From the NCBI RefSeq assembly GCF_030268965.1, contig NZ_BSSE01000013.1, forward strand, positions 5,642 through 69,641: a stretch of DNA of 64,000 nt, written 5' to 3'. The notes under the pieces are model-generated. The model made no database searches and was not told the DNA's origin. It saw nothing but the letters and a program-made list of their open reading frames with translations. This document shows positions 28,402-49,528 of this stretch, piece by piece. Made by a program: the position numbers and the translations under genes. The stretch comes from Microtetraspora sp. NBRC 16547 (lineage in GTDB: Bacteria > Actinomycetota > Actinomycetes > Streptosporangiales > Streptosporangiaceae). The stretch's first letter is position 1. Every line of letters begins with the position of its first letter.

Positions 28402-28452
28402 GGAGCGCGGATGGCGGCGGCGGGCGGGCCGCCGCCGAGGGGCCCGCGCTCC
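28402..28452. terminator. Nested hairpin between convergent genes
   Basis: GGAGCGCGG (28402-28410) pairs with 28444-28452, and inside it GGCGGCGGC (28413-28421) pairs with 28428-28436. It lies between the tetR gene and the FHA gene. Three 11-bp repeats of the type TGATCGGGCCG follow at about 28470-28505. Confidence 0.75.
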
Positions 28453-47114: not shown

Positions 47115-47248
47115 CCCCCGCATCGCCGCCCCGGCGGTGAAATGTCGGATCCGCCGGTGCCACCGGAGCAATACGGATTTAACAGAGATTGGAACGCGCC
47201 CGGCACGGGCATCTCGTTGTGGTGTCGTCGTCGCCGCGGGGAGCGTGC

Positions 47249-47725
47249 ATGAGTGCCCGGCAGATCCGAATGTTCACCGATCCTTCGCTACGCACCGTAG
47301 CCGAACCGGTCACGACCTTCGATCGTTCCGTACGCGATCTCGTCCGGTCACTCACCGCGACCATGCGGGCCGGCGCGGGGCGGGCCGGGCTGGCCGCGCC
47401 GCAGATCGGCGTCCCGCTCCGGGTGATCGCCTTCGAGGTGGACGGGAGGGCGGGGCACATCGTCAACCCGCGCCTGGAGGTCTCCGGCCGGGTGATCCGG
47501 GCCGATGAGGCGTGCCTGTCCGCTCCCGACCGGTGGTGGCCGTTGGAGCGCTCCTTCGCCGCCGTCGCCCGCGGCAGGGACATGTACGGCAAGCCGATCA
47601 CGGTCCGCGGCATCGGCATGCTGGCGCGCGTGCTCCAGCACGAGGCCGACCACCTCGACGGCGTCCTCTTCATCGACCACCTGCCCGCGGAGGAGCGGGA
47701 GCGCTTCCTCGCCGCCATCCCGTAG
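47249..47725 (+). CDS. def: Peptide deformylase
   Basis: A 158-residue metalloenzyme that removes the formyl group from nascent proteins. Motif I GLAAPQIG (47-54), motif II EACLS (87-91) with metal ligand Cys89, and motif III QHEADHLDG (130-138) with His131 and His135 are all visible. Motif II has Ala where most family members have Gly (EGCLS), a small departure. The start is ATG 47249 (RBS GGGGAG). It follows the PAC2 gene and precedes a 372-bp gap with a tandem repeat. Confidence 0.92.
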   Translation: MSARQIRMFTDPSLRTVAEPVTTFDRSVRDLVRSLTATMRAGAGRAGLAAPQIGVPLRVIAFEVDGRAGHIVNPRLEVSGRVIRADEACLSAPDRWWPLERSFAAVARGRDMYGKPITVRGIGMLARVLQHEADHLDGVLFIDHLPAEERERFLAAIP

Positions 47726-47797
47726 GCGTTCGACCGGGCGCTCAGCGTGCCGTCCCGCGCGCCGCGAGAAAGCCCGGCGCAGGACATAGCGCCGGAC

Positions 47798-47929
47798 ACA
47801 GGGCCGAGCACAGGGCCGAGCACAGGGCCGAGCACAGGGCCGAGCACAGGGCCGAGCACAGGGCCGAGCACAGGGCCGAGCACAGGGCCGAGCACAGGGC
47901 CGAGCACAGGGCCGAGCACAGGGCCGGAC
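47798..47929. repeat. 12-bp tandem repeat, 11 copies
   Basis: Ten exact copies of ACAGGGCCGAGC (47798-47917) are followed by one divergent unit. The period is a multiple of three, so the array is open in frame with the downstream amidase gene and would encode TGPS repeats; there is no ribosome-binding site before it, so I treat it as non-coding. It lies between the deformylase stop and the structured leader of the amidase gene. Confidence 0.9.
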
Positions 47930-47961
47930 AATACGGCGGATAGCACGGCGGACTGGCTGCC

Positions 47962-48097
47962 GGATACCGCAGTGGACATTCGCGTCACTATCCGACCACG
48001 AGGAGTAGCCGTCTCCGACCCTGGGGACGATGGCTTCGACCTGCCCTGCCGGACGTGGAAACCCCGAGAATCCACGCTCAACTCGGGGAGGGTCAAC
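47962..48097 (+). promoter_or_regulatory. Structured 5' leader with H-type pseudoknot over the RBS
   Basis: Three foldable elements precede ATG 48098. First, GGAT/ATCC and AGTG(G)AC/GTCACT form a bulged hairpin (47962-47993). Second, GTCTCC (48011-48016) pairs with GGGGAC (48023-48028). Third, an H-type pseudoknot: stem 1 CGTGGA (48054-48059) with TCCACG (48071-48076); stem 2 CCCCGAG (48062-48068) with CTCGGGG (48082-48088). Its loops are AA, AA and CTCAA. Stem 2 uses the first half of the Shine-Dalgarno run GGGGAGGG (48085-48092). The geometry suggests translational control. No known riboswitch class matched by eye. Confidence 0.5.
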
Positions 48098-49528
48098 ATG
48101 TCCGTGTTCTTCTGCGGTCTCACGCCGGCTGGTGAGCCCGCGCACTCCGGCGACCTCGGGCCGGCTCCCGAGGTCGCGCGCACACGCGGTCTCACGCCGG
48201 CTGTGGAGGCCGCGGTTTCCGGCGGCCATCCGCCGGACGCCCCCGCGGGTCACACCGCGGCCATCGGCGCGGGAGACGGGTCCGCTGGCCGACTGGTGGT
48301 CCCAGACGGCGGCGCTCTCGGCCGGGTGGGCGAGGCGGCGATCAGCCGGCGGGCGTTCCTGGCGCTCGGGGGCGGGGTCGCGGGCGGCGCGCTGCTCCAG
48401 CCGCTGGCGCCGGCCCGGCCACCGGCCGGGGCCGCGTCCTCGGCCACCCGCGCGTCCGGCGCCAGGACCTCCGGCACCGCCGGGAGCCCGACCGGCGGCG
48501 CGGCCTCGGGCCCCACAGGCGGCTCGGCCACGGCCGGGACATCGGGGGCGTCGGGCGCTTCGGCGGCGACGACCACAGCCGCGACCACGGGGGCCGCGAC
48601 CGCGGGGACGGCGACGGCGACCGACACGGCGCCCGAGGCCGCGACGGCGGAGGCAGAGACATTGACAGCGGGCGACACGGCGGGCGACACGGCGGGCGGG
48701 ACCGCGACGGCGGAAACCTCGACGAGCACAGCACCGAGCGCGGCGCCCGTGGCGGTGTCGAGGTCCGCGGCGAGGTCCGCGACGGGGACCGCGTTACCCA
48801 CCCCGCCGCACATCCATTCACGGCAGCAGTGGCATGCCCGTCCGCCACGGCGGCCCGCCCGGGTGGTCGACCACGCGCCGGACCGGATCGTCGTCCACCA
48901 CACGGCGACGGCCAACGTGGCCGACACCGGCATCGGCGCCGCCTTCCGGCTGTCACAGGCGATCCAGCGGTACCACATGGGCCGCAACGGCTGGGACGAC
49001 ATCGGCGAGCAGTTCACGATCAGCCGCGGCGGCTACGTCATGGAGGGAAGGAACGGCACGCTGGCCGCCATCGCGCGCGGTGAGCACGTGGTCGGCGCAC
49101 ACACGGCCAACCACAACACCCACACGGTCGGCATCGAGACCGAGGGCACGTACATGACCGAGTTGCCCCTCCACGGCCAGATCGTGGCACTGACCCGCCT
49201 CGCGGCCTGGCTCTGCGGGATCTACGGGCTCGACCCCGACGTGGCGATCATCGGCCACCGCGACCTCAACACCACCTCGTGCCCGGGCGACAGCCTCTAC
49301 GCGTACCTGCCCGAGCTGCGCCGCCGGGTGATCCGGCGGATGGCGCGGTTCCAGGACCCGGCCCAGGCGGCGGCCCTGGCGGCCAGGGCGGCTCAGGCCG
49401 CCCCGCCGGTCCCGCTGGAGCGCCGGCCGCCGCGGCGGCTCGCCCTCCCCGGCCGGCTGGACTTCCTCGGCAGCGCCGCGCCGTTCGAGCACGGCCCCGC
49501 CGTAGGAGGGCGCGACCTTACGGGCTGA
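48098..49528 (+). CDS. Tat-exported N-acetylmuramoyl-L-alanine amidase (PGRP type)
   Basis: A 476-residue protein. A twin-arginine signal SRRAFLALGGGVAGG is centred on Arg84/Arg85, behind an unusually long N-terminal stretch that contains a 17-bp direct repeat 72 bp apart (48114-48130 and 48186-48202). A long Ala/Thr/Gly-rich linker (about 110-240) follows. The amidase_2/PGRP domain (about 265-430) has zinc ligands in IVVHHTAT and GHRDLNTTSCPGD. It should cleave peptidoglycan between MurNAc and L-Ala. The start is ATG 48098 with a GGGGAGGG ribosome-binding site; later GTG codons at residues 67 and 77 are alternatives. Confidence 0.88.
   Translation: MSVFFCGLTPAGEPAHSGDLGPAPEVARTRGLTPAVEAAVSGGHPPDAPAGHTAAIGAGDGSAGRLVVPDGGALGRVGEAAISRRAFLALGGGVAGGALLQPLAPARPPAGAASSATRASGARTSGTAGSPTGGAASGPTGGSATAGTSGASGASAATTTAATTGAATAGTATATDTAPEAATAEAETLTAGDTAGDTAGGTATAETSTSTAPSAAPVAVSRSAARSATGTALPTPPHIHSRQQWHARPPRRPARVVDHAPDRIVVHHTATANVADTGIGAAFRLSQAIQRYHMGRNGWDDIGEQFTISRGGYVMEGRNGTLAAIARGEHVVGAHTANHNTHTVGIETEGTYMTELPLHGQIVALTRLAAWLCGIYGLDPDVAIIGHRDLNTTSCPGDSLYAYLPELRRRVIRRMARFQDPAQAAALAARAAQAAPPVPLERRPPRRLALPGRLDFLGSAAPFEHGPAVGGRDLTG

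Follow-up and report, generated by a model that had tools for sequence, protein, structure and literature searches.

The window analysed here, a stretch of 64,000 nucleotides from Microtetraspora sp. NBRC 16547, encodes an N-acetylmuramoyl-L-alanine amidase downstream of a gene of the polypeptide deformylase family. The amidase had been predicted to be exported by the Tat pathway, and it carries a twin-arginine motif in agreement with this, followed by an Amidase_2 domain (PF01510). We take the ATG at 48098 as the true start. Insertions and deletions of 1-2 nt among close relatives lie upstream of this codon, hence this part of the leader is noncoding. Sixteen orthologues were translated, 13 from outside Microtetraspora and 3 from within, and in 13/13 of the former, counted from the homologous start, the first residue of the twin-arginine motif is at position 5-18. 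In the three translated Microtetraspora amidases the twin-arginine motif is preceded by an N-terminal stretch of about 40-83 additional residues (48098-48346 in the window) that contains a repeated GLTP segment. Two further observations concern the neighbourhood. The def start is preceded by a conserved stretch close to TCGTCGTCGCCGCGGGGAGCGTGC (window 47225-47248), found in several genera at several of the loci L104-L135, and the 12-bp unit GAGCACAGGGCC recurs in about eleven perfect copies at 47797-47926, between the deformylase gene and the leader, an array not seen in the close relatives examined. The features referred to below are the following (SD, Shine-Dalgarno).

47249-47725, + strand: def, polypeptide deformylase family gene, the upstream neighbour (Pfam PF01327, E = 7e-36)
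48002-48007, + strand: box 1, GGAGTA (GGAATA in most scored relatives), putative -35 element, proposed from its fixed spacing
48023-48029, + strand: box 2, GGGGACG (GGGGATA in most scored relatives), putative -10 element, proposed from the same spacing
48038-48048, + strand: anti-SD, 5' strand of helix A, GACCUGCCCUG with one mismatch (paired with 48084-48094 in a blocked-loop fold; conservation)
48054-48059, + strand: 5' arm of P1, CGTGGA, identical with stem 1 (covarying helix)
48062-48068, + strand: loop CCCCGAG, identical with the 5' strand of stem 2 (exact in 20/30 distinct leaders)
48071-48076, + strand: 3' arm of P1, TCCACG (covarying helix)
48082-48088, + strand: CTCGGGG, 3' strand of stem 2, overlapping the SD (sequence)
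48085-48092, + strand: SD run GGGGAGGG, within the 3' strand of helix A (sequence and folds)
48098-49528, + strand: Tat-exported N-acetylmuramoyl-L-alanine amidase (Amidase_2), 476 aa (Pfam PF01510, E = 8e-17, and ORF frame)

The original prediction for this leader was an H-type pseudoknot that sequesters the ribosome-binding site. The interlocking stems are present as described, CGTGGA with TCCACG and CCCCGAG with CTCGGGG, and so are the loops AA, AA and CTCAA between their strands; the pseudoknot ends at 48088 and not at 48097, and 5 bases, not 6, separate the SD run from the ATG. A scan of both strands of the window for exact interlocked stems, 6 and 7 bp long and joined by loops of 1-3, 0-3 and 3-7, gave 4 matches, the amidase leader and three overlapping ones in one other region (28415-28447); 60 dinucleotide shuffles of the window averaged 0.87 matches and reached 4 at most. 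One match of interlocked stems in a GC-rich window is no more than chance expectation. As chance alone would produce such a geometry about 0.9 times here, comparison with homologues must decide. An intrinsic terminator or transcription attenuator was considered and rejected, as the sequence has no T run between 48038 and 48098. Reading the leaders of the matched loci, we saw no conserved upstream start codon of the kind that control by an upstream ORF would use.

Upstream boxes and distribution of the leader

Two hairpins had also been proposed further upstream, at 47962-48028. They overlap the promoter-like boxes, and the second keeps only 65.5% of its pairs in 14 relatives; what speaks for it are some two-sided changes and a covariation score that 9/500 shuffles reach. 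Boxes 1 and 2 stand 21 bases apart in 28/35 upstream regions and 20 apart in one, with variable spacer sequence, the box variants having been chosen after seeing the sequences and 6/35 regions (four of them from Acrocarpospora) being unscored. This fixed spacing favours a promoter, though the hairpins may still belong to the RNA. Box 2 lies 16-17 nt before the anti-SD where measured, and together the boxes resemble a promoter from which transcription would begin immediately ahead of the anti-SD. The Acrocarpospora promoters (L058, L065, L066, L069) contain, upstream of the leader, an inverted repeat like GGTTAC-N5-GTRACC, and in other genera CGGTT...GTGACCGG occupies roughly this position. The Acrocarpospora repeat resembles a GTnAC site of the type bound by the response regulator MtrA, a candidate that we regard as a lead only; the published M. 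tuberculosis MtrA motif repeats a GTnAC-like unit with other spacing (PMC6265350, PMC5650626).

The leader itself is 89-92% identical in three other Microtetraspora genomes found by DNA search and was read in one further (G057). Amidase orthologues of other genera, with 54-66% identity over the compared part, have a leader of the same design: first an anti-SD (mostly ACCUCCC or GCCUCCC), next a hairpin whose loop resembles CCCCGAG, then CUCGGGGAGG or a variant of it, and the start. A covariance model of the leader, R1, matches 27/200 family genomes at E <= 1.7e-5 with one strong copy each, and 5 further Microbispora genomes, in total 32 genomes of the same GTDB family; by genus it is found in Microbispora (15/15 genomes), Planotetraspora (5/5) and Acrocarpospora (4/5). 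Amidase motifs follow in one frame downstream in 31/32 strong loci, and the 32nd locus ends at a contig edge. Seen from the side of the gene, 26 of the best 80 of 375 named amidase loci match the leader at E below 1e-5, and Rhizohabitans matches at 0.004. Beyond the family, a search of 118 class genomes (some of the same family), run with stricter filters at which weak matches may be lost, gave three weak matches (E 0.03-0.1), none with amidase motifs. Among the matches listed no other gene has a strong leader match that would indicate a regulon; the sole moderate extra match (L084, E 0.006) has no amidase motif downstream.

Pairing within the leader and access to the ribosome-binding site

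Covariation was counted in an alignment of 30 distinct leaders (A8), which omits L078, L084 and three reverse-strand matches, and a genus-swap test used 30/31 distinct leaders (L078 being absent from the alignment) in 7 groups, among them one labelled Sph that corresponds to GTDB genus g74 (Planotetraspora sp. A-T 1434). Of the two stems that were expected to covary in homologues, only the first does so. In P1, pairing is stronger between arms from one genus than between arms swapped across genera (P = 0.0014; 0.019 for the outer part by itself), and all 17 cells with two-sided changes fall within P1, a number that 0/500 shuffles reach (5.7 in shuffles). The exchanges are CG to UA at the base, UA to CG inside, and GC and AU at the top. 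Two of the five covariation measures are not above shuffles, namely the pairs with two-sided change (76/500) and the further pair types (403/500). RNAalifold on a longer alignment recovered helix A together with a portion of P1, and no two-sided changes in them. By this comparison P1 is a covarying hairpin, and we show that the anti-SD, P1 and the SD are conserved in front of an orthologous gene.

Helix A is a pairing that the original prediction did not contain. Its anti-SD, GACCUGCCC in the window, lies about 40 nt upstream of the SD and can pair with it around P1. The core CCUCCC is exact in 27/30 distinct leaders, the window leader with its one mismatch being among the exceptions. When the leader alone is folded, the minimum free energy (MFE) structure contains helix A and P1 in 33/33 cases and the stem 2 hairpin in 0/33; nested folding is unable to show pseudoknots, so that this count does not exclude one. 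With about 25 nt of the ORF added, helix A is found in 29/33 and stem 2 in 3/33 MFE structures. The window leader is among these three, its MFE fold switching to stem 2 with an SD unpaired probability of 0.51. The nearly invariant core of helix A has no two-sided changes, one pair is unpaired in 12/30 cells in the register of the model, and the swap test gives -15.6 kcal/mol for own against -15.0 kcal/mol for permuted partners (P = 0.14). Shuffling the C-rich 5' end still leaves on average 5 of about 9 anti-SD pairs, with 21% of shuffles reaching the real number, and the MFE z-scores of the leaders are modest (-0.4 to -3.5).

Sister genera add a different kind of evidence. Two Sphaerimonospora loci (L104/L105) have lost P1 and its loop and kept CCUCCC facing GGGAGG, and in Herbidospora (5/5 loci) the SD is hidden by an unrelated hairpin of 6-7 bp, CUCCUCC:GGAGGAG. 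Hiding of the SD thus appears to persist while the sequence is replaced. The argument for helix A is one of persistence and computed accessibility, not of covariation. Separately, in Nocardiopsis the folded locus L137 has a stem GUGUYCUCUGUG:CACAGAGAGGAC around an inner hairpin that covers the SD within about 60 bases before the amidase start; L132 and L134 have a similar layout by eye, and their sequence is unrelated to the Streptosporangiaceae leader.

The part of the original prediction that concerned the state of the SD agrees with the folds, which place its unpaired probability below 0.25 in 31/33 leaders. Taken over all genera, 77 scored amidase starts have a median of 0.17, and the SD is open at some loci outside these genera, for example L124 (0.41) and L127 (0.62). 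For 32 Streptosporangiaceae amidase loci the median is 0.017 compared to 0.335 for 24 neighbour-gene starts (P = 3e-6), a comparison of related and not independent species with script-chosen starts, for which 37/80 loci were picked after seeing the values and 5/37 then dropped (L092, L112 and L115 for a wrong start, L108 and L109 with no start scored), and which contains no Microtetraspora locus, all four having dropped out. Of the neighbour-gene controls 4/24 fall below 0.1, and a PAC2 start and a flippase start equal the amidases in how well they are hidden. A temperature switch, as once suggested, finds little in the computed ensembles of the family, in which 30-31/33 leaders keep the SD paired (unpaired probability below 0.25) over the whole range of 20 to 65 C, whereas the window leader partly opens (0.29, 0.51 and 0.58 unpaired at 20, 37 and 55 C).

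We consider it likely, with a probability of roughly 0.6, that the gene for this secreted peptidoglycan amidase has a short 5' leader of its own, about 60 nt long, and that this gene-specific element throttles translation through an anti-SD:SD helix A formed around P1. In such a leader the RNA would begin just upstream of the anti-SD, which from its place at the leader start would pair with the SD and hide the ribosome site by default. P1, situated between the strands of helix A, would draw both together and keep the pairing local. The predicted hiding of the SD would lower amidase translation, and regulation would probably act mostly via the promoter and ribosome competition rather than via a ligand.

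Stem 2 and competing explanations

Stem 2 does not share the behavior of P1. None of its pairs changes on both sides across the 30 distinct leaders (0/7), 425/500 shuffles pair as well, and the swap test gives no own-genus advantage (P = 0.94). It is complete in 14/30 distinct leaders and has lost two or more of its seven pairs in 11/30, with a minimum of four standing; 85.1% of its cells are paired, with some one-sided G-U changes. Within Microtetraspora every observed change in the stem is to G-U, which fits the stem but counts as weak evidence for it. The rough energy estimate also speaks against the pseudoknot: in all five Microtetraspora leaders helix A with P1 comes out lower, at -23 to -28 kcal/mol compared to about -14 to -22 kcal/mol for the pseudoknot, assuming a penalty of 7-9.6 and a duplex initiation of 4.1 kcal/mol. 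The pseudoknot as a conserved lock on the SD is thus supported neither by covariation nor by this estimate. Helix A and stem 2 compete, having three G's of the SD in common, and helix A is the more constant SD-hiding helix of the two and, on this rough estimate, the more stable. The pseudoknot of P1 and stem 2 may at most be an alternative fold; since stem 2 leaves AGG of the SD free, this fold could be transient or half open.

Such an alternative fold would be central to a two-state switch, in which the CCCCGAG loop and the anti-SD compete for the G's of the SD and a ligand, protein or small RNA acting at P1 or the loop toggles translation. On the emerging RNA stem 2 is nearer to the SD; a kinetic or regulated scheme is conceivable because stem 2 could form first and would leave AGG free. 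The exact loop in 20/30 leaders, the fraction of complete and G-U-tolerant stems, the shared G's and the 3/33 MFE structures won by stem 2 when the ORF is included are in line with it. Against it stand the lack of compensatory change in stem 2 and the loss of two or more of its pairs in 11/30 leaders, the single strong copy per genome with no regulon among the matches listed, and the replacement of the whole element in sister genera, and we regard this switch as unlikely, if worth keeping in view.

A second possibility is that the RNA has no function of its own and that promoter or operator DNA lies next to a C-rich and G-rich start region, the folds being by-products of composition. The upstream boxes at fixed spacing would be expected in this case, composition alone yields many of the anti-SD pairs, and helix A lacks clear covariation. 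However, compensatory changes in P1 and a CCUCCC that is kept after P1 is lost are unexpected of a promoter, and most neighbour-gene starts at the same loci are less hidden than those of the amidases, which makes this explanation improbable. More speculative still, and in our opinion distinctly improbable, is a new Streptosporangiaceae class of riboswitch or RNA sensor in which a cell-wall-linked ligand or protein would choose between the CCCCGAG loop and the anti-SD. The analysis gave no sign of small-molecule sensing. Known RNA thermometers place the SD in a hairpin beside the start codon, and the SD here lies in a hairpin adjoining it, but melting of this hairpin on warming to free amidase translation is the least credible reading, disfavoured for the family by the SD that stays paired over the computed temperature range and by the lack of an Rfam family match, and less so for the window's own sequence with its partial opening.

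The structural throttle is favoured over a ligand sensor because one copy serves one gene and because sister genera replace the element. Secreted amidases can harm the producer cell's own wall and, to our knowledge, little is recorded on restraint of such enzymes at the mRNA level in actinobacteria apart from c-di-AMP riboswitches. If the throttle is real, sister genera would have rebuilt a default-off leader with other sequences, which would imply that selection acts on the hiding of this SD as such. The amidase leader is a compact element and easy to test.

Comparison with known systems

The statement that the leader cannot be matched to a known riboswitch family holds: the Rfam 15 covariance models give 0 gathering matches in the window. 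At 47700-48400 there are four matches with E 0.13-9.4, all far below the gathering scores, and in 7 relatives one match (E 0.3) that lies away from the leader. Several H-type pseudoknot riboswitches, for example preQ1 class I, bury the SD in a stem. The amidase leader can likewise be drawn as an H-type pseudoknot with a second stem overlapping the SD, but this stem 2 is without covariation and incomplete in 16/30 distinct leaders, and no Rfam family matches. Generic leaders with an SD-sequestering hairpin, which exert translational control without a known ligand, share with the amidase leader an anti-SD that, in computed folds, encloses an inner hairpin by pairing with the SD, so that the ribosome site is hidden. 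In contrast to them, the amidase leader is a homologous element with a covarying inner hairpin that is kept in several genera in front of one orthologous gene.

Functionally nearest are the ydaO c-di-AMP riboswitches of Streptomyces rpfA and C. glutamicum nlpC, which also form a leader before a secreted cell-wall hydrolase. The ydaO-type riboswitch of C. glutamicum nlpC likely acts on translation (PMC9960051), and seven hydrolases of S. coelicolor and six of S. venezuelae have ydaO-like leaders (PMC10117811). The amidase leader differs in having no ydaO match at 47700-48400 (E <= 10) or in the seven relatives (E <= 1), in its length of about 60 nt, if the proposed start is right, and in its one strong copy per genome. 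Among the papers listed by searches of the open-access literature, none reports the amidase leader in its title or abstract. Thus, the amidase leader is ordinary in kind and new as an instance.
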